Below are positions 2,640-44,565 of a DNA stretch of 64,000 bases, one piece after another. The position numbers were made by a program, and so were the translations under genes. Where the stretch lies: the NCBI GenBank assembly GCA_025350105.1, contig JANXYJ010000201.1:1-64000 (forward strand). Reading direction: 5' to 3'. Numbering within the stretch: position 1 is the first letter of the stretch; the number at the start of each line of letters is the position of its first letter. The notes beneath the pieces are model-generated. The model was not told the DNA's origin. It searched no databases and saw only the letters and a list, made by a program, of their open reading frames with translations. The DNA comes from Terriglobia bacterium. Lineage in GTDB: Bacteria > Acidobacteriota > Terriglobia > Bryobacterales > Bryobacteraceae.

Positions 2640-3209
2640 GTGTCAGAACCAGCATTCGCAGTGGACCAATTGGCGCACGCCGAGCACGCTCCGTCCAGTC
2701 ACGAGAACGCCGAAAAAGTTCAGCAGGTGCGCGAAATTCTTTTCGGACCCGACCTGCGGCAGATCGATCAGAATCTGAATCAGATTGGCGAGATGGTGCG
2801 GAAGCAGAGCGCGGATTTGCGTGAGGAAATGCGCCGCCGCCTGGATACCTTCGAGACGCTGTTTAAGAGCGAAATCGAAACCCTGCAAGGGCAAGTTCGC
2901 CGGGAGCGGGACGAGCGGGTTGCCGCCGATTCGCAGCTTTCCAAGAACTCACATGAAGCGGGCGAGGGCACGCACCGGCGTCTGGCCGATTACAGCGATC
3001 AGTTTGCGTCGGCGCAAACCGCGTTGCGCGGCGAAATGCTGGCGCAGATGAAAACGCTGTTCGACGAAATGACGGCGCGCGATGAGCGTTGGACCAAGCT
3101 GATTGAATCGCGGCTGGGCGCGCTCGGTCAACAAAAAACCGATCGCACGGCGCTGGCTACCTTGCTATCGGAGATGGCCGCGCGTTTGGGCCAGGAATCG
3201 CAGAGTTAG
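2640..3209 (+). CDS. Coiled-coil protein, first gene of the GTPase/phosphorelay operon
   Basis: A 189-residue soluble protein with a GTG start preceded by GGGGAGGAAA. After a short His/Ala-rich leader, residues ~25-185 are almost entirely charged amphipathic helix (Glu, Arg, Gln, Leu heptads such as DLREEMRRRLDTFETLFKSE). There is no signal peptide or membrane span. It lies 29 bases upstream of the OmpA-domain gene, and the next four genes overlap or nearly touch, so all five are probably one transcript. A scaffold or adaptor role for the GTPase module is a guess from position; the family is not recognised. Confidence 0.75.
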   Translation: MSEPAFAVDQLAHAEHAPSSHENAEKVQQVREILFGPDLRQIDQNLNQIGEMVRKQSADLREEMRRRLDTFETLFKSEIETLQGQVRRERDERVAADSQLSKNSHEAGEGTHRRLADYSDQFASAQTALRGEMLAQMKTLFDEMTARDERWTKLIESRLGALGQQKTDRTALATLLSEMAARLGQESQS

Positions 3210-3238
3210 AGCAGGCATGCAGGCATAAGGAGCGCGTT

Positions 3239-4777
3239 GTGGCGAAACCCGCGCCCTGGCGGCAGGCTGGCGTCGTGAAAACAAACGTGGCCGGATCAAA
3301 CGACGATCCCAACGACGAACTCGCCGAGCTGCGCAGGCTGCTAGACATCCCGGATTCGGTAGAGTGGGCGGAGCTGCGTTCCTTCTGGCTGGACCGCGAA
3401 CGCCGCGCCCGCGATTTGGGCGAGCGCCTGCCGGATGCGGTGCGTCTACGCACTGAATCGGATAACCAGTTACGGGACGCGCTGCAGCCGGTAATCGAAG
3501 AGGGCCTGAAGCTTTCGGTACGGCGCAATCCGCAGGTGATCACCGAAGCGCTGTTTCCGCTGATTGGCACGATGGTGCGCCGGTCTGTGGCGGCATCGCT
3601 GGCGCAATTGAACGAGAACGTAAATCAAACGTTGGAATCGTCTTTGTCGTTGCGATCGGTGGCCTGGCGCTGGGAAGCTTCGCGGCGCGGGGTTCCGTTT
3701 TCGCGCGTGTTACTGGAACGCAGCCTGCGTTTCCGCGTCGAACAAGCGTTTCTGATCGATCGCCGCGCGGGCCTGCTGCTGCTGCACCGCACCTCGCAGG
3801 ACTCCGTGGTACGAGATCCCACTGTGATCTCGGGCATGTTGACGGCGATTCAGGACTTCGTGCAGGATTCCTTCAGCGGACCGGAGGAAATGCTGGAGTC
3901 CGTGCGCATGGGTGAGCATACGGTGTGGATCAACTCCGGCCCGCGTGCGGTGTTGACGTGCGTGGTGCGCGGTGCGGTTCCGCCCAGCTTCAAGACGGTG
4001 ATGGAAGAGTCGCTGGGCGAAATTCACCGGGAGTTTGCCAAGGAACTGGAGGAATTCAGCGGCGATACGGAAGCCTTCGCCGGTGCCGCGCCGGTGCTGG
4101 ATGCGTGTTTGCTGGGCCAAGCACCGAGGGTTTTGCATAAAGCGGGCATGCGTTGGCTGTGGGCCACGGCGAGTTTGCTCCTGCTAGCCGCGGCCGCGTT
4201 CGGGATTTGGCGCTGGACGCAAAACCGTCACTTCGAACAGTATGTCCAAAGCTTGCGATCGCAACCGGGCATTGTGGTGAACCAGGCGGAGCGCGTCGGC
4301 GGCAAGTGGCACGTGAAGGGTCTGCGCGATCCGATGGCCGTTGATCCGCTGAGCCTGGCTGGATCGGCTGAAGTCGATCCAGCGCAGTTGGAGATGGAGA
4401 TGACGCCCTATCTTTCGCCGGACTATTCGCCACAACGGGCCGCGGCGGAAGCGGCGCAGCGCGTGCAAAGCCGGGTGCTGACGTATGCAACCAATTCCGC
4501 CAAGGTTCCCGATTCTGCGATTGATTTTCTGGCGGCCGATATCCGGCTGCTGGACGATTTCGCCACGCTGGCCAATCGCTCCGCTTTGATCCACGTGACC
4601 GGAAGCGCTGATACGGTGGGCGATGCGGCGCACAACAACAACCTGGCCACCCAGAGGGCCGAAAATGTGGTGGACGCGCTTACGGCGTCCGGACTGCCAG
4701 CGGCGCTGTTCGATGTGCGGGTAAGGCCGGGCGTGGCGCGCTTCGTCAATTTCGAAGTCGAGATGACCGCGAAGTGA
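3239..4777 (+). CDS. Membrane protein with cytoplasmic roadblock/longin-like domain and C-terminal OmpA-like domain
   Basis: 512 residues, GTG start behind AAGGAG. Residues 1-160 are helical and charged, predicted cytoplasmic. Residues ~168-285 (AFLIDRRAGLLLLHR, then ISGMLTAIQDFVQDSF, then GPRAVLTCVVRG) follow the hydrophobic pattern of roadblock/longin-like folds, which commonly partner small GTPases. This is my reading, not a search result. Residues 306-325 form one transmembrane helix. Residues ~400-512 resemble an OmpA/MotB peptidoglycan-binding domain (VTGSADTVGDAAHN, LATQRAENVVDAL). The architecture would tie a cytoplasmic GTPase to the cell wall. Its stop overlaps the start of the GTPase gene by four bases, implying translational coupling. 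Confidence 0.75.
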   Translation: MAKPAPWRQAGVVKTNVAGSNDDPNDELAELRRLLDIPDSVEWAELRSFWLDRERRARDLGERLPDAVRLRTESDNQLRDALQPVIEEGLKLSVRRNPQVITEALFPLIGTMVRRSVAASLAQLNENVNQTLESSLSLRSVAWRWEASRRGVPFSRVLLERSLRFRVEQAFLIDRRAGLLLLHRTSQDSVVRDPTVISGMLTAIQDFVQDSFSGPEEMLESVRMGEHTVWINSGPRAVLTCVVRGAVPPSFKTVMEESLGEIHREFAKELEEFSGDTEAFAGAAPVLDACLLGQAPRVLHKAGMRWLWATASLLLLAAAAFGIWRWTQNRHFEQYVQSLRSQPGIVVNQAERVGGKWHVKGLRDPMAVDPLSLAGSAEVDPAQLEMEMTPYLSPDYSPQRAAAEAAQRVQSRVLTYATNSAKVPDSAIDFLAADIRLLDDFATLANRSALIHVTGSADTVGDAAHNNNLATQRAENVVDALTASGLPAALFDVRVRPGVARFVNFEVEMTAK

Positions 4778-5313
4778 CAGAAGCGGTGAAAGCGATCCAG
4801 AAAAAAGTCTGCCTGCTGGGGTCTTTTGGCGTGGGCAAAACCAGCTTGGTGCGGCGTTTTGTGCAAGGCATTTTCGACGAGCGCTATCTGACCACCTTGG
4901 GCGTGAAGATCGACAAAAAGGAATTTACCCTGCCCGACAAAAAGGCGATGATCAACCTGGTGCTGTGGGATTTGGCGGGGGAGGATTTTCGCGCGCCGGT
5001 GCAGCTTGCTTACGTGCGCGGCGCGGCGGCATGCCTGTACGTGGCGGATGTGACCCGGCCGGAAACTTTGACCACTGCGCAAACCATTGCGGCGCGAGTG
5101 CGCGAGCAAGTGGGACCGCTGCCGTTTGCGTTGGCCCTGAATAAGACTGATTTGACTGCGGGCGATCCGGCTTACGGCGATCAAAAACGGGACGCCACCT
5201 CCGGGATTCTCACCCAGATGACCACGGAAGGTTGGACGGTTACGCAAACCAGTGCAAAAACGGGGGCGGGCGTAGAGGATGCCTTCGCGGCGCTGGCGTT
5301 GCGCTTGCTCTGA
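4774..5313 (+). CDS. Ras/Rab-like small GTPase
   Basis: 179 residues. All G boxes are present: P-loop GSFGVGKTS (16-24), switch I threonines TTLGVK (40-45), G3 WDLAGE (65-70), G4 NKTD (123-126) and G5 SAK (160-162). The position equivalent to Ras Gln61 is Glu70, as in several bacterial Ras-superfamily proteins I recall, so intrinsic hydrolysis may need a partner. There is no C-terminal lipidation motif. The start is a GTG inside GTGA, overlapping the upstream OmpA/roadblock-like gene. That partner and the two downstream phosphorelay genes suggest a polarity, surface-sensing or envelope-signalling switch, by analogy with MglA/MglB. It is not MglA itself, since the G3 box differs. Confidence 0.9.
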   Translation: MTEAVKAIQKKVCLLGSFGVGKTSLVRRFVQGIFDERYLTTLGVKIDKKEFTLPDKKAMINLVLWDLAGEDFRAPVQLAYVRGAAACLYVADVTRPETLTTAQTIAARVREQVGPLPFALALNKTDLTAGDPAYGDQKRDATSGILTQMTTEGWTVTQTSAKTGAGVEDAFAALALRLL

Positions 5314-5328
5314 CGGCGGCGATCGAGA

Positions 5329-6876
5329 ATGGCAACAATGGACTGGCTTTATCCAATTCTGGACATGGCGGTGCTGGAAACGGTGGTGCCGGAGGCGGCT
5401 CCGTTCCTCTGGCAGCTAAAGTCGCCCGCTCCGGATTGGTTTCGCTGGCAAACGGCGGAATCGGTTTCCATGGAGGCTTTGGCCGAAGAATTCGCGTTCC
5501 TGGATTTCTTTGTCCCGGAAGCCTTTCGCCTGCGGGAGACAAGCGGATTGCAACGGGTACGCAGCGAAATTTGGACGCAAGTAAATGCCCAGGGCGCGGA
5601 AAATGCCTTTCGGGCGGAAATGATTTTTGGCCCCTCCACGGTATTGGTGATTCAGCAAGTGAACCAGGATCACGCGGAGATTCGCACGGCGCATCAATGG
5701 GGGAGGGATTGGGCACTGGCCAGCCAGCGCCTGGATCATCGCCGCGAAAATGTGGAAGTGATGGGCCGGCACAAGGACGAATTTTTGTCCAGCATGAGCC
5801 ACGAACTACGTACGCCGCTCAATTCCATCGTCGGATTCGCCACACTGTTGGGACAGCGCAAAGGCGGCGAACTCACGGAACGGCAAGCGGGCTTTGTCAA
5901 CAATATTCACACGGCGTCCCGGCATTTGCTGGCCTTGATCAACGAACTGCTGGACATTGCCAAAATCGACGCCGGACGGCTGGAACTGCACAGCGAACTG
6001 TTTCCCGCCGAGGACTGCGTAAACGAAGTTCTTACCGTGCTGATGCCGCAAGCGAGCGTAAAAAGCCTGCAGATTAAAACCGTTGGCGCCCAGTTGAAGG
6101 TATTTTGCGACCGGTTGCGGCTGAAACAAATTCTGTACAACTTGTTGAGTAACGCCATTAAGTTTTCGCCGGTTGGAGCGCAGGTGACGATTGCATTTGA
6201 GGAAAAGCAAAATGCCGTGTGCATGACCGTGAGCGACCAGGGACCTGGAATCGCCAAGGCAGAGCAGGCAAGAATCTTCGAACCGTTTCAGAGCCGGAAT
6301 GGAAGAAAAGAAGAAGGCACGGGGCTGGGCTTGGCCATCACGCGGCGACTGGTGGAGGCGCACGGCGGGACCATTACGTTGGAGAGCACGCCGCAACAGG
6401 GCTCGCGCTTTCAGATGACGCTGCCGCGGCCCGGTTCCTCGGCCGTACCTTCTATCTCTGCTGGCGGCATCGCGGTGATTGAGGGCGAGCCGGGAACGGG
6501 ATTGTTAATCCGCTCCATCCTGGAACCCGAACACCAGGTGACGGTGTACTCCTCATGGGAGAGCGCACGGCAGGGGTTTGCCACAGCGGCGCCCGGCCTG
6601 GTGTTCGTGGATCACCATCTGGCCGACGCCGAAAGCAGCGAGGTGTTGGCGCAGATCCGCCAACAGAAATCCTTGACCCAGATGTTTGTGACGGTACTGA
6701 CGCGGGAGCCGGATGAGGGACCAGCGGGCTTTGACCAGGTGATTCACAAACCCTTGGGAGACGGCCGCGCGATTGAGCAATGCGTGGAACATGCGATGAA
6801 ACGGCGATTGGAAACCTTGCCTGACGCCGCGATTGAAAACACTGCGCTGGAAACGCCCAAAGGAGTTTCCGTTTGA
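5329..6876 (+). CDS. Soluble hybrid histidine kinase
   Basis: 515 residues. Residues 1-140 are an unassigned N-terminal sensory region without membrane spans. HisKA carries the phosphoacceptor in SSMSHELRTPLN (His158). The ATPase domain shows NLLSNAIKFSP (N box), DQGPGIA (G1) and GTGLGLAI (G2). From ~375 to 490 lies a receiver domain with EGE as the acidic pair, Asp in LVFVDHH and Lys in VIHKP. Histidine and receiver aspartate allow internal phosphotransfer. The gene starts 15 bases after the GTPase stop, and its own stop overlaps the next start, so it is in the operon. A cytoplasmic sensor next to a GTPase suggests it may read GTPase state; that is inference. Confidence 0.88.
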   Translation: MATMDWLYPILDMAVLETVVPEAAPFLWQLKSPAPDWFRWQTAESVSMEALAEEFAFLDFFVPEAFRLRETSGLQRVRSEIWTQVNAQGAENAFRAEMIFGPSTVLVIQQVNQDHAEIRTAHQWGRDWALASQRLDHRRENVEVMGRHKDEFLSSMSHELRTPLNSIVGFATLLGQRKGGELTERQAGFVNNIHTASRHLLALINELLDIAKIDAGRLELHSELFPAEDCVNEVLTVLMPQASVKSLQIKTVGAQLKVFCDRLRLKQILYNLLSNAIKFSPVGAQVTIAFEEKQNAVCMTVSDQGPGIAKAEQARIFEPFQSRNGRKEEGTGLGLAITRRLVEAHGGTITLESTPQQGSRFQMTLPRPGSSAVPSISAGGIAVIEGEPGTGLLIRSILEPEHQVTVYSSWESARQGFATAAPGLVFVDHHLADAESSEVLAQIRQQKSLTQMFVTVLTREPDEGPAGFDQVIHKPLGDGRAIEQCVEHAMKRRLETLPDAAIENTALETPKGVSV

Positions 6877-8297
6877 GCACGCACAGCGGCCGCGAGGTTC
6901 GCGTGTTGGTGGTGGACGACGATCCTTTGTCGCTTGAATTGGTGACCGCGGCATTGGAACAGGAAGGCGTGGAGATTGCCTCCACCACCGATTCGAGACA
7001 GGCCCTGCCGATGATGCGCGCGCAGCGGCCGGACATTTTGATTCTGGACCTGATGATGCCGGGCCTGACAGGCATGCAAGTTCTGGAGCAGGCGCGCGAG
7101 CAGGATTCGACGCTGGACGTAATTCTGATGACGGCGCACTACTCCACCGAATCGGCGGTGGAGGCGATTCAGAAAGGTGCCGCGGACTACTTCAATAAGC
7201 CCATTGACGTAGAGAAGTTGCAATCGCGTGTGGGCGGATTGATTGAAGAAGTACGCCGCCGGCAGAGGGCGCGCCGGCTGGATGAAGAGATGGTCGAGAC
7301 CGTGCGCTTTGAAGGCATGGTGGCGCGCAGCCCGGTGATGCAGGATCTGTTCGCCAGAATTCGCAGAGTGGCCCCGCATTTCCGTACCGCGTTGGTCACC
7401 GGTCCCACGGGCACCGGAAAAGAATTGGTGGCGCGGGCGCTGCACAACCTGAGCGCGAAATCGAATGGGCCGTTTGTGGTGTGCAATTGCGCGGCGCTGA
7501 CCGAGACCATCGCCGAAGGTGAGCTGTTCGGACACATGCGCGGGTCCTTCACTGGGGCGCAACAGGATAAAGCCGGATTGTTTGAAGCCGCGCATGGCGG
7601 AACGCTGTTCCTGGACGAAATCGGCGAAATGCCGCTGTCCATCCAAGCCAAACTGTTGCGCGCCGTGCAACAACAGGAAGTGCTGCGGGTGGGCGCCACA
7701 GCGCCACGCAAAGTGGATGTGCGCATTGTGGCGGCGACGAATCGGACATTGAAGGACTCCATTGCGCACAAAGAATTTCGCGAGGATCTGTTCTTTCGCC
7801 TTAGCATGGTGCAACTGACGCTTCCCCGTTTGGCGGATCGCCGCGAAGATATTCCGCTGTTGATCCAACATTTTCTGGATCATTGGTCGGCGGAATATAA
7901 CAAGCCGATTGCCGGGCTGGATCATCGGGCGCTGACGTTGCTGACGCTGTACGCTTGGCCCGGCAACGTTCGCGAACTGGAAAATACGCTGGGCTATGCC
8001 GCCATGATGGCACGCTCCGCCACCATTATGCCGCGCGATTTTCCGGAAGAAATACTGGGTGGGCCGGCGAAGGCGGCGGCCAACCCGGCGGAGAGCAGCA
8101 CGGATTATCCGCTGGTATCTCTCGAAGAAATGCGGCGTCTGCACGCGCGCCGCGTGGTGGAATCGCTAGGCGATGACAAGGTCCGCGCCGCCGCCATTCT
8201 CGGTGTCAGCCGCGCCACGCTATACAGACTGTTGTCCGATGCCGCCCCGGAAAATGATCGCGATGAGGAAACCAGTCCCTCAGCCTCAGCGCTTTGA
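6873..8297 (+). CDS. Sigma-54-dependent response regulator (NtrC type)
   Basis: 474 residues. The receiver has the DDD acidic cluster (15-17) and phosphoacceptor Asp59 (LILDLMMPG). The AAA+ domain has Walker A GPTGTGKE (177-184), a GSFTGA loop (224-229) in place of the usual GAFTGA, and Walker B LFLDE (245-249). The C-terminus has a Fis-type helix-turn-helix (VRAAAILGVSRATLYRLL). The start is TTG overlapping the kinase stop, with AAAGGAG upstream. It is the expected output of the adjacent hybrid kinase. Activators of this class act at -24/-12 promoters; I did not find a clear one in the window that it obviously controls. Confidence 0.9.
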   Translation: MSTHSGREVRVLVVDDDPLSLELVTAALEQEGVEIASTTDSRQALPMMRAQRPDILILDLMMPGLTGMQVLEQAREQDSTLDVILMTAHYSTESAVEAIQKGAADYFNKPIDVEKLQSRVGGLIEEVRRRQRARRLDEEMVETVRFEGMVARSPVMQDLFARIRRVAPHFRTALVTGPTGTGKELVARALHNLSAKSNGPFVVCNCAALTETIAEGELFGHMRGSFTGAQQDKAGLFEAAHGGTLFLDEIGEMPLSIQAKLLRAVQQQEVLRVGATAPRKVDVRIVAATNRTLKDSIAHKEFREDLFFRLSMVQLTLPRLADRREDIPLLIQHFLDHWSAEYNKPIAGLDHRALTLLTLYAWPGNVRELENTLGYAAMMARSATIMPRDFPEEILGGPAKAAANPAESSTDYPLVSLEEMRRLHARRVVESLGDDKVRAAAILGVSRATLYRLLSDAAPENDRDEETSPSASAL

Positions 8298-36234: not shown

Positions 36235-37380
36235 ATGCTCGTATCACAGCTCACACTCAAGAATTGGCGGAATTTCACGCACGTTAGCGTGCCGCTTTCT
36301 GAACGTGTGTTTGTGATTGGGCCAAATGCGTCCGGGAAATCAAACTTTTTGGATGCACTTCGCTTCGTTAGGGACATTGCGAAGCCCGGTGGAGGGCTGC
36401 AGCCTGCACTCGCGCAACGGGGCGGCTTATCAAAAGTCCGATGCCTGTATGCGCGCCAGAAACCCGACGTCGAACTGGTCTTCGAGCTGAAAAACGGTGG
36501 CGACACTCCCGACTGGAAATATGAAATCGGGATAACCCAGCAGGTGCGAGGCCGCCGCCAGCCAATATTGAAATACGAGAGGGTGTGGAACGGCACTGAA
36601 AAAATCCTTGACCGCCCGGACGATCACGACAAAAGGGATGAAGAAAGAAGAACGCAAACGCACCTTGAACAGATCAGTGCCAATTCCGAGTTCAGAGAGG
36701 TTTCGCGCTTCTTCGAGTCGATTCGATATTTGCATCTGGTTCCTCAGCTATTGAGGCATCCCGGCGCATTTCAGGGGTTGAATGTTCACGAAGATCCATA
36801 TGGACGAAATTTCCTGGAAACTGTCGCCAAGACAAGCGAAGCGCGGCGCGATTCGAGACTGGGAACCATTGAACGAGTATTGCAGGAAGCGGTTCCAAAC
36901 CTTAAACATCTTAAATTGACAAAGGATGAGGCCGGAGTGCCTCATCTCGAAGCAATATATAAACATTGGCGACCAAACGGTGCTAGGCAGCGCGAAGATC
37001 AATTCTCAGACGGAACACTCCGTATGATTGGATTATTTTGGTCTCTGCTGGAAGGGGATGCCCCATTACTTCTTGAAGAACCGGAACTATCATTGCACTC
37101 GGAGATTGTGAAGCTGCTTCCTGGTCAGCTAGCGCGGCTTCAGCGAACAAAAAAGCGCCAAATTCTTGTTAGTACCCACAGCTGGGATCTTCTTTCAAAT
37201 CGTGGTATCAGCGGAAACGAAGTCATTATTCTAAAGCCCGGCGAAGAGGGGACCGAAGCGAAGCTGGCCTCAGACGACCCGAGTGTGCGTGCTCTCCTGA
37301 CCGGCGGGCTAACTATTGCCGAAGCAGCTCTACCCGGGACTAAACCTGCCGGTCTGGGGCAGCTTCAGCTATTTGAATAA
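36235..37380 (+). CDS. AAA/ABC-type ATPase of the OLD-like class
   Basis: 381 residues, soluble. Walker A is GPNASGKSN (29-37), following LTLKNWRNF, the usual opening of RecF/OLD-like ATPases. A signature-like QFSDGTLR lies at 256-263, Walker B PLLLEEPE at 277-284, and the switch His in STHSWDLL at 313-316. GC is visibly lower than in neighbours (about 45-50%), suggesting transfer. The stop overlaps the start of a TOPRIM-like DUF4276 gene by one base. ATPase plus TOPRIM nuclease is the layout of OLD, Gabija-like and PARIS-like defence systems; this exact combination is not one I can name. Confidence 0.8.
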   Translation: MLVSQLTLKNWRNFTHVSVPLSERVFVIGPNASGKSNFLDALRFVRDIAKPGGGLQPALAQRGGLSKVRCLYARQKPDVELVFELKNGGDTPDWKYEIGITQQVRGRRQPILKYERVWNGTEKILDRPDDHDKRDEERRTQTHLEQISANSEFREVSRFFESIRYLHLVPQLLRHPGAFQGLNVHEDPYGRNFLETVAKTSEARRDSRLGTIERVLQEAVPNLKHLKLTKDEAGVPHLEAIYKHWRPNGARQREDQFSDGTLRMIGLFWSLLEGDAPLLLEEPELSLHSEIVKLLPGQLARLQRTKKRQILVSTHSWDLLSNRGISGNEVIILKPGEEGTEAKLASDDPSVRALLTGGLTIAEAALPGTKPAGLGQLQLFE

Positions 37381-42600: not shown

Positions 42601-42660
42601 GACATGATAACCTCTTCGCATGCAATGCGGGCATTGGAAATATTTTGGGGAGGTGCTTGC

Positions 42661-43416
42661 TTGAATAACTCCCCTTTCAAATATCACGCTTTTGGCTTTT
42701 TTGATGAAAGCGGAAAGCTGTCTAAGCGCGAAGATATTGTTGCGTTTGCCGGATTCATAGGATTGGCGAACGAGAACGCTCTTCTCTCCGGAAGATGGGG
42801 CGAACGACTGAAAGAGGATGGCCTAGACTACACCAGCATGAAAGAAGCCCTGCGCTGGGAGGGGCCGTTTTCTACCTGGTCCAATATGCCTGAGCGTAGG
42901 GAACGACTGCTTCTCGATTTGGGGAATATCATCTTAACCTCACGGGTTATGCGGACCTGTAGCTATGTAGCATCGGAGGATTTTAGCGCCCTTCCTGAAT
43001 CCGAACAAAAGATTTTTATCAATCCGCAATATTGTTGCTTTGAGGGCTGCATAGTTGAATCCCTGCGCGGCAGAGACGATTTTTCGCTAAGCGTCATATG
43101 CGACTTGTCAGAGGAGTATGCAGAGCAGTGCGTTACATTATTCAATAAAATACGGGCCAGAAACCCGCTGGTAAAAAACCGCGGGTTGGGCATTAGCTTC
43201 ATGGATGATAAAAATTCGTACGCACTGCAAGCAGCCGATATGATCGCCTACTGCGCTAGGGCCGAGCAGCTCAAGGATCGCAGGAATGAATCTCCCGTGG
43301 TCACTAAGCTCATAGAGCTCTTTAGCTCACGAGATCGGGTTGAAAGGAAATTTGGGTATAAAGTAGGAAGTCTCGGGCTTGGAGACGGAGACATAATGGA
43401 GTCAAATGAAAAGTAA
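42661..43416 (+). CDS. DUF3800 protein (passenger of the IS1595-type element)
   Basis: 251 residues from the TTG at 42661, chosen because GGGGAGG ends seven bases before it; an upstream ATG would add an unlikely leader. AFGFFDESGKLSKRE near the N-terminus and SYALQAADMIAYCARA near the C-terminus are the two hallmarks of DUF3800, a family with an RNase H-like fold and probable nuclease function, often found near mobile and defence genes. GC is lower than in chromosomal neighbours. The stop overlaps the start of the small basic peptide gene. Confidence 0.8.
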   Translation: MNNSPFKYHAFGFFDESGKLSKREDIVAFAGFIGLANENALLSGRWGERLKEDGLDYTSMKEALRWEGPFSTWSNMPERRERLLLDLGNIILTSRVMRTCSYVASEDFSALPESEQKIFINPQYCCFEGCIVESLRGRDDFSLSVICDLSEEYAEQCVTLFNKIRARNPLVKNRGLGISFMDDKNSYALQAADMIAYCARAEQLKDRRNESPVVTKLIELFSSRDRVERKFGYKVGSLGLGDGDIMESNEK

Positions 43417-43587: not shown

Positions 43588-44565
43588 TCAGTTAGGATAC
43601 GTTTGCGGTTCATGATTCTTGCCCGTGGCCTCATTCCAGGTGAGACGTTTGCCTACGATGCTGGAGGCCGCTGCTTTGAAGCGGTCGAGATCGTTCATGG
43701 ATTTGTCGCGGTTATTGAAGCGATAGGCTTGTTCGTCCAAGTAGCGAAACAGGTGGAACGGTTCGACCGAAACATAGGTGCCGCTCAGAGTGCGTTTCAG
43801 CAAGCTCCAGTAATTCTCCAGCGAGTTGGTATGGCATTCGCCGTCCACGTACTCTACAGCGTGATCCACAACTTTGTGGGCATATTCACCCGCCAAGCCA
43901 TCATACGAAAGCAGCGAATCGCTATAGAGCGCGGAACCAGCTTCTACATGCTTCCGTACTTCGCCTTGGATGGCGTGCTTTTTGCGGTTCGGCAGAACTG
44001 AAGTGCGAACCTTGCTCTTGCCATCTTTGGCGCGTTCCAACACGCCCATAACGGCAGTCTTGTCTTTGGTTCCAGTGCCAGTGATGCGGCGTTCGCGTTG
44101 AGCTACGTGCATGTTGCGGGCTTTACCGCCGATGAAAGTTTCATCTGCTTCGACATGGCCGGAAAGTTTCTCGATACTGCCAGTGTGCAGCGCCATCCGA
44201 ATGCGGTGATTCAGAAACCATGCGGACTTCTGAGTGATTCCGAGGTCTTTGGCCATCTCGCAAGAGCTAATGCCATTCTTGCAATTGACGATGAGCCACA
44301 GTGCGACAAGCCACTTGTCTACGCTGATCGGGGAATCTTCCATGATGGTGCCAACCTTCAGCGAGAATTGCGCCTTGGAATGACCGCCATAGCATTTGTA
44401 GCGGTTCTGAGTGGCGAGATAGGTAACGCGATCAGAGCAACAGATGGGGCACAGGACCTTGCCGTCCGTCCACCGCAAGTCCGCTAAGAACGAATTGCAG
44501 TTCTTCGGATCGGCGAAATGAATGATCGCCTCTTGTAGGGTTTTGGGTTCGTTTGCGCTTGCCAT
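43588..44565 (-). CDS. IS1595-family transposase
   Basis: 325 residues. An N-terminal zinc ribbon (CPICC ... YKC) is followed by the ISXO2-like core: HVEADETFIGGKARN with the first catalytic Asp, LYSDSLLSYDGLAG, and CHTNSLENYWSLLKR with the terminal Asn/Lys, as in the DDN(K)-type catalytic set of this family. The gene is full length with no frameshift, so the element could still be active. It is oriented toward the two passenger genes. Confidence 0.92.
   Translation of the reverse strand: MASANEPKTLQEAIIHFADPKNCNSFLADLRWTDGKVLCPICCSDRVTYLATQNRYKCYGGHSKAQFSLKVGTIMEDSPISVDKWLVALWLIVNCKNGISSCEMAKDLGITQKSAWFLNHRIRMALHTGSIEKLSGHVEADETFIGGKARNMHVAQRERRITGTGTKDKTAVMGVLERAKDGKSKVRTSVLPNRKKHAIQGEVRKHVEAGSALYSDSLLSYDGLAGEYAHKVVDHAVEYVDGECHTNSLENYWSLLKRTLSGTYVSVEPFHLFRYLDEQAYRFNNRDKSMNDLDRFKAAASSIVGKRLTWNEATGKNHEPQTYPN

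Follow-up and report, generated by a model that had tools for sequence, protein, structure and literature searches.

We analysed a five-gene operon (genes A to E; Table 1) in a 64,000-nucleotide stretch, hereafter the window, at positions 1 to 64,000 of contig JANXYJ010000201.1 of a Terriglobia bacterium (assembly GCA_025350105.1), whose genome comprises 4.74 Mb in 206 contigs. An initial annotation had read the five genes as a coupled set encoding a coiled-coil protein, an OmpA-domain membrane protein, a Ras-like GTPase, a hybrid kinase and a sigma-54 regulator. A check of the window confirmed five open reading frames (ORFs) on the + strand. Because the B/C and D/E junctions each overlap by 4 bases and only 15 bases separate C from D, the genes are tightly coupled and can be read as one operon. 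GGAGG precedes A, and a promoter and terminator scan across the operon found no excess. Judged by its gene and locus features, rather than by position in the published GTPase tree, the operon is a Group 1 system of the Rup family of small GTPases, a family named, with its Group 1 loci described, by Wuichet and Sogaard-Andersen (2014; PMC4316618). We consider it on balance probable that the operon is a Rup GTPase signalling system with sigma-54-dependent transcriptional output, working by the mechanism proposed below.

Table 1. Genes and protein regions of the operon, in window coordinates.
Feature	Position	Strand	Residues	Description
A	2640-3209	+	189 aa	ORF; cytoplasmic, putative coiled-coil protein; conserved N-terminal V-R-x-I-L-F-G and C-terminal D-R-x-x-L-A segments (consensus)
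B	3239-4777	+	512 aa	ORF; helical N-terminal region at residues 24-150 (model)
B, predicted longin-fold domain	3728-4126	+	164-296	Model topology, Foldseek and VIA-align
B, transmembrane helix			about 303-325	Hydropathy peak at 306; periplasmic segment next
B, OmpA-like domain			about 435-489	Pfam PF00691
C	4774-5313	+	179 aa	ORF; Rup-type (Rab/Ras-like) small GTPase; Ras PF00071, 88 bits
D	5329-6876	+	515 aa	ORF; soluble histidine kinase: Dn, HisKA-HATPase core, degenerate receiver tail; no strongly hydrophobic segment
Dn	5329-5781	+	1-151 of D	PAS-like adapter (predicted); near-invariant Gln123 and Arg126 on outgoing helix
E	6873-8297	+	474 aa	ORF; NtrC-type response regulator: receiver, sigma-54 AAA+ with GSFTGA loop, Fis-like helix-turn-helix

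As described in the main text of that paper, Group 1 loci combine a GTPase lacking the G3 Gln with a coiled-coil protein and a protein with a domain of unknown function, often with a transmembrane helix and an OmpA domain. The output is a kinase or a GGDEF/EAL protein whose N-terminal region carries an invariant Gln, perhaps given in trans to the GTPase (PMC4316618). The window operon shares these features: it encodes a small Ras-like GTPase that keeps the G3 Asp and lacks the catalytic Gln, coiled-coil and membrane-OmpA neighbours of the same kind, and an output kinase with a Gln-bearing N-terminus, and no MglB gene is coupled to it. Neither the gene set nor the concept of membrane-linked GTPase signalling is therefore new, because both are described in PMC4316618. 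Relative to that description, the operon differs in having a sigma-54 regulator as its fifth gene (the word "sigma" is absent from the main text of the paper), and we predict that the domain of unknown function is longin-like and that the Gln-bearing region is PAS-like. As of 2014 no Rup member had been experimentally characterised (PMC4316618); among the matches listed in the open-access literature we found no later work on these Rup systems, subscription journals lying outside the scope of that search.

C is a single-domain protein (under 240 aa) with motifs G1 to G5 intact (G1, G3 with Asp66, G4 NKxD, G5 SAK), in agreement with its earlier designation as a Ras-like GTPase, and its best solved relatives are Rabs. 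Its G3 motif reads WDLAGED, placing Glu70 where Ras has Gln61. Position 70 is Glu in 85 of 99 aligned rows and Gln in one, and Asp66 is kept in all 98 rows carrying a letter there. Protein A matched no Pfam family above cut-off and has no hydrophobic stretch by hydropathy; its coiled coil was read by eye from the sequence. A similar R-x-L-L-x-G segment opens the conserved parts of both A and the N-terminus of B; a comparison of the two N-terminal segments was not significant (hhalign probability 3.4%).

Hydropathy analysis revealed a single hydrophobic segment in B, near residue 306, and none as strong in A, C, D or E. The far end of B proved OmpA-like, as had been claimed, with PF00691 scoring 31.8 bits against a cut-off of 27.2. 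D458, G461, N466, R473 and A474 of this part were almost invariant among 21 aligned sequences; we take the Asp and Arg to be the peptidoglycan-binding pair of OmpA-like domains. We modelled residues 1-341 of B with AlphaFold2 on 62 aligned sequences, obtaining a mean predicted local distance difference test score (pLDDT) of 81.5, with block means of 72-94 for residues 161-220 and 89-98 for residues 221-290. In the model, residues 166-291 have the topology bb-a-bbb-a-a (b, strand; a, helix), which is that of a longin domain and includes the extra C-terminal helix that, according to PMC10933270, marks longins versus roadblocks, as does the lack of the N-terminal roadblock helix. The best 50 Protein Data Bank (PDB) rows returned by Foldseek were, by title, mostly roadblock, longin, adaptin, TRAPP and GTPase-complex chains. 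VIA-align placed a chain of a Rab23/Fuzzy-Inturned entry first (Z 13.9, root-mean-square deviation (rmsd) 2.7, 124 residues), followed by Sec22b (Z 13.5) and VAMP7 (Z 13.4), then adaptor subunits and TRAPP. The initial annotation had proposed a roadblock/longin platform at residues 168-285; our prediction retains a fold of this type, with residues 164-296 predicted to be longin-like and to fit longin better than roadblock topology. A longin-like prediction for the formerly "unknown" domain of the OmpA protein is new, and the fold seems not to have been described there before.

Several observations weigh against these domain assignments in B. The predicted template modelling score (pTM) of the model was 0.52, a short helix (residues 154-162) stands ahead of the first strand of the domain, and the top Foldseek row was MglB, a roadblock protein (E 5.2e-5). 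Because MglB leads in Foldseek and the helix at 154-162 is present, the choice of longin over roadblock rests on VIA-align and the two C-terminal helices. Pfam found neither a longin nor a roadblock match in B (PF03259 included), nor among the 25 families listed for 62 relatives, and hhalign gave a probability of 0.5% when the longin region was compared with 26 roadblock proteins, a narrow set of low diversity. This comparison had little power, since other profiles set against the roadblock set or the longin region also scored 0.1-8.6%, the highest being the adapter family Sn (described below) against the roadblock set. Because there is no Pfam or profile match, the relation of the B domain to longins and roadblocks is by fold only; a roadblock identity was not found at the sequence level. 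Pfam also missed the OmpA domain of the nearest relative, locus L054.

D contains HisKA and HATPase_c (Pfam); its receiver-like tail is degenerate, falling below the Pfam cut-off (20.7 of 30.2 bits), with part of the usual acidic pair absent as read, so the "hybrid kinase" of the initial annotation is borne out only in part. The N-terminal region of D, Dn, was modelled with a pLDDT of 92.9 as a PAS-like domain running into a long helix. Gln123 occurs in 77 of 80 aligned rows (the remainder being M, R and one truncated row) and Arg126 in 77 of 80, with H in two; we infer that Gln123 is the invariant Gln of figure 4 in PMC4316618. That the Gln-bearing N-terminus of the output kinase looks PAS-like in the model is a new assignment. 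The structural matches, moderate in strength, temper it: PDB matches were mostly PAS/LOV, the best of them a LOV-PAS kinase at a Foldseek E of 4.8e-3, with no PDB row at E <= 0.001, and alignment with the FixL PAS domain gave Z 9.2 and rmsd 4.5 over 137 residues (VIA-align). PAS_8 matched one of 43 Dn members (0.0016). Sequence searches of the PDB with the B and Dn profiles returned nothing credible.

In Cyanobacteria a second adapter family, Sn, is encoded by a small gene that follows C; elsewhere it is fused to kinases or cyclases. Sn has a Gln-Gln pair on the stretch corresponding to the Dn Gln, and the two families are weakly related with their Gln residues aligned (hhalign probability 78%). 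In 34 cyanobacterial loci (for example, L065:10253-10654 and L111:10135-10536), a stand-alone Sn gene (mostly 124-143 aa) separates the GTPase gene from that of the Dn-kinase, an arrangement suggestive of a split adapter or of competition between adapters.

E has receiver, sigma-54 AAA and AAA lid domains above the Pfam cut-offs and a Fis-type helix-turn-helix below (16.2 of 22 bits); its GSFTGA loop is of the GAFTGA type expected of a sigma-54 response regulator, and rpoN is present in the source genome, all of which upholds the regulator as originally read. Exact matches to the sigma-54 promoter consensus were absent from the window (0.27 expected), a relaxed pattern occurred 21 times versus 37 expected, and the GG-N10-GC pattern was uninformative (946 found, 997 expected). 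Because the window holds no excess of such promoters, we propose no local sigma-54 targets.

We next collected 101 loci through their relatives of B, of which 99 are distinct (L034/L060 and L041/L119 are the same contigs). Eighty of them were the top-ranking of 518 relatives sorted by similarity to the window, which biases the output proportions, and Cyanobacteria are numerous. By title or kinship the loci span Acidobacteriota, Cyanobacteria, Nitrospirota, Desulfobacterales, Zetaproteobacteria and others. B is present in all by construction, with L038 and L128, missed by our first ORF scheme, showing B in a six-frame scan; A was found in 97 loci and C in 95, 90 loci have an adapter domain, and the set recurs beyond chance. 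C was not found in six loci: L059 and L087 are contigs shorter than 3.5 kb, L037 is a 9.1 kb contig from a genome that carries C on another contig, and the other three are L102, L116 and L133.

We also measured co-occurrence in 396 genomes of the phylum, with thresholds of E<1e-50 for B, E<1e-60 for C and E<1e-25 for a strong match to Dn, the adapter covered by this search. B and C occurred in the same 21 genomes, the next C match being at 1.4e-23; by simple counting, which ignores shared ancestry, the chance of this is about 2e-35. Strong Dn matches numbered 16 in 14 genomes, all within the 21 and all adjoining a B or C match by coordinates. Two non-Rup genomes had Dn matches, at 5.8e-6 and 5.6e-5. 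Roadblock genes are widespread in the phylum, occurring in 81 of a set of 119 genomes. This set included six of the 21 Rup genomes, and among the roadblock matches listed for those six none was on the contig of the Rup locus. Other counts weigh against the mechanism proposed below. No adapter was recognised in 11 of the 101 loci; of the other seven Rup genomes, three had a weak Dn match limited to the helix and four had none; and B was missing from every one of the 22 other genomes examined in the genus, and present in one of 38 searched outside it. Because B is missing from all 22 of these genomes, the system is accessory and patchily distributed rather than a core function.

The outputs encoded behind the adapters varied (a locus may count under two). 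A kinase without a nearby sigma-54 regulator was found in 54 of the 101 loci, including L044, where the kinase is merely a neighbour and the adapter carries GGDEF. Ten loci have a kinase plus a sigma-54 regulator, defined as a same-strand regulator within 6.5 kb of the start of B. The adapter is fused to a sigma-54 activator in 14 loci, mostly Nitrospira but also L036 and L053, the latter from the window's own order. A class III cyclase is the output in six loci (five distinct) and a GGDEF protein in three; nine have an adapter without a recognised output, and in another nine nothing was recognised. Pfam confirmed representatives of these outputs (histidine kinase, sigma-54, GGDEF, GGDEF-EAL and Guanylate_cyc). 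New here, on the evidence of gene content, is that such adapters would also drive sigma-54 activators and class III cyclases. Sn is fused to class III (Guanylate_cyc) cyclases adjoining Rup GTPases at L103:6225-7256, L105:3499-4530, L120:10882-11916 (assigned by local phmmer only) and L041:5809-6852; these fusions would link a bacterial small GTPase to cyclic AMP/cyclic GMP-type signalling. In two loci titled Deltaproteobacteria and Desulfobacterales (L091:1475-3452 and L122:5062-6995), C is coupled to a sigma-54 activator on the strand opposite A-B; the N-terminus of the activator is weakly Sn-like, and both loci are among the nine with nothing recognised.

The order A-B-C-kinase-sigma-54 regulator recurs in Acidobacteriota. 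The regulator is immediately next in L050, L051, L054, L079 and L063 (the last a contig without A), starts about 1 kb after the kinase in L055, L061 and L062, and precedes A-B-C together with the kinase in L046 and L047. In a tree of B, the window falls beside L054 (52% identity), among loci that are mostly of the kinase-plus-sigma-54 type. Since this is a quick tree with long branches, we used it only for repeated changes of output label, of which there were four for the fused sigma-54 activator (at least two forced by starred branches) and four for the kinase-plus-sigma-54 output (at least two). The link of GTPase, kinase and sigma-54 regulator claimed for the window recurs in relatives, with the kinase-regulator pair being just one among several outputs exchanged behind the same adapters.

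These features suggest the following mechanism. B would span the inner membrane, with its OmpA-like end holding peptidoglycan, and its cytoplasmic longin domain would be a docking or regulatory platform that binds C and sets its nucleotide state or position, probably with the assistance of A; the state of the envelope would be the input, and the sensing of wall attachment, polarity or surface contact, in line with the initial annotation, may be its role. GTP-bound C would engage the PAS-like Dn of D. The near-invariant Gln on the signal helix of D may be supplied in trans to complete the active site of C, which has no catalytic Gln of its own, so that GTP hydrolysis and helix movement would be coupled. 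The adapter helix would then drive whichever output is attached: in the window, D would phosphorylate or dephosphorylate E, which would activate sigma-54 promoters elsewhere in the genome.

The signal could also run the other way, with D and E being an ordinary two-component system that controls how A-B-C is expressed or how active it is, and the real output of the GTPase being envelope or motility machinery, like that of MglA. Consistent with such an order, no Dn or Sn was found in the two loci where NtrC and kinase genes stand ahead of A-B-C (L046 and L047), and the L046 kinase, the one of the two scanned with Pfam, has an ordinary PAS_4 domain. We nevertheless consider it unlikely that the kinase is upstream: the adapter is present in 90 of the 101 loci and is fused to several kinds of output, strong matches to Dn were confined to Rup loci across the 396 genomes, and cyclases and sigma-54 activators are hard to interpret as inputs. 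Similarly improbable, in our estimation, is that residues 164-296 of B are a passive structural platform whose longin fold binds A or lipids and not the GTPase. Some roadblock/longin proteins, such as the SNARE longins, regulate no small GTPase (PMC10933270), and hhalign did not find a sequence-level link to roadblocks; against this, the genes for B and C are coupled and share one set of 21 genomes among the 396, and the fold matches include chains of the Rab-binding complexes Fuzzy-Inturned, Mon1-Ccz1 and TRAPP (VIA-align Z 10.5-13.9).

MglA/MglB had been named in the initial annotation as the closest known analogy, and the lead of MglB in the Foldseek search could be taken to mean that the operon is an MglA/MglB polarity module to which further domains have been added. 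We think this very improbable and rejected such membership: C keeps the G3 Asp, which MglA lacks (PMC4316618), in 98 of 98 rows; the only PF03259 roadblock match of the source genome is on contig 11 and not on the operon contig; and the best longin chains align with B over 118-125 residues within 164-296 at Z 13.4-13.9, versus 104 residues at Z 10.9 for MglB. The published Group 1 Rup systems are closer. The MglA/MglB/RomR module does share with the Group 1 reading a Ras-like GTPase, a roadblock/longin-type partner and two-component proteins; it differs in its GTPase family and in having roadblock rather than longin topology. To our knowledge, it has no wall anchor and no shared output adapter. 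Group 1 loci have also been likened to the actinobacterial conservon (PMC4316618), in which a small GTPase gene likewise lies beside histidine kinase and GTPase-partner genes; as described there, conservons (CvnA-D) differ in having an MglA-type GTPase, an MglB-type roadblock and a membrane HAMP kinase, and no response regulator.

Eukaryotic complexes of longin Rab guanine nucleotide exchange factors (Fuzzy-Inturned, Mon1-Ccz1 and TRAPP) resemble the proposed B-C pair in combining a longin fold with a Rab-like GTPase; we saw no sequence relation, and the bacterial protein differs in its membrane location and its OmpA-like, wall-binding end. Eukaryotic Ras-superfamily GTPases have been proposed to descend from ancestral Rup GTPases (PMC4316618), and Zhang et al. 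(2012; PMC3521125) derive eukaryotic longins from the roadblocks of MglA-type GTPases and regard Rab binding as a broadening of specificity. The latter view would be complicated by a bacterial longin adjoining a Rab-side GTPase.

Elsewhere in the window, an 18-bp tandem array (positions 2412-2513; 5.7 copies of the consensus ATAACTGCGTCCGTCGCT) ends 126 bp upstream of the operon and may either bind a regulator or have arisen by slippage. An ISXO2/IS1595-type transposase gene adjoins a DUF3800 gene (43588-44565 and 42604-43416), and positions 36235-37380 encode an AAA_21-type ATPase (128 bits; the Pfam name mentions AbiEii), possibly a defence-type gene.

A wider proposal, which we advance tentatively and hold to be possible but less than probable, is that bacteria have true longins as dedicated Rup partners, the longin-Rab pairing being older than or independent of eukaryotes, and that the Rup switch serves generally for signalling from the wall to the cytoplasm: a single PAS-like adapter would donate the Gln, act as GTPase-activating protein and effector alike, and be combined with kinases, sigma-54 activators, or diguanylate and class III cyclases. 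That outputs are swapped while the adapter stays the same singles out the effector domain directly, and the system offers a concrete path, open to experiment, by which a wall-binding membrane protein would act by way of a GTPase on transcription or second messengers. If the constant neighbour of Rup GTPases is a longin, the pairing of GTPase and partner on which eukaryotic membrane traffic centres would have a bacterial counterpart, in culturable organisms such as Nostoc.

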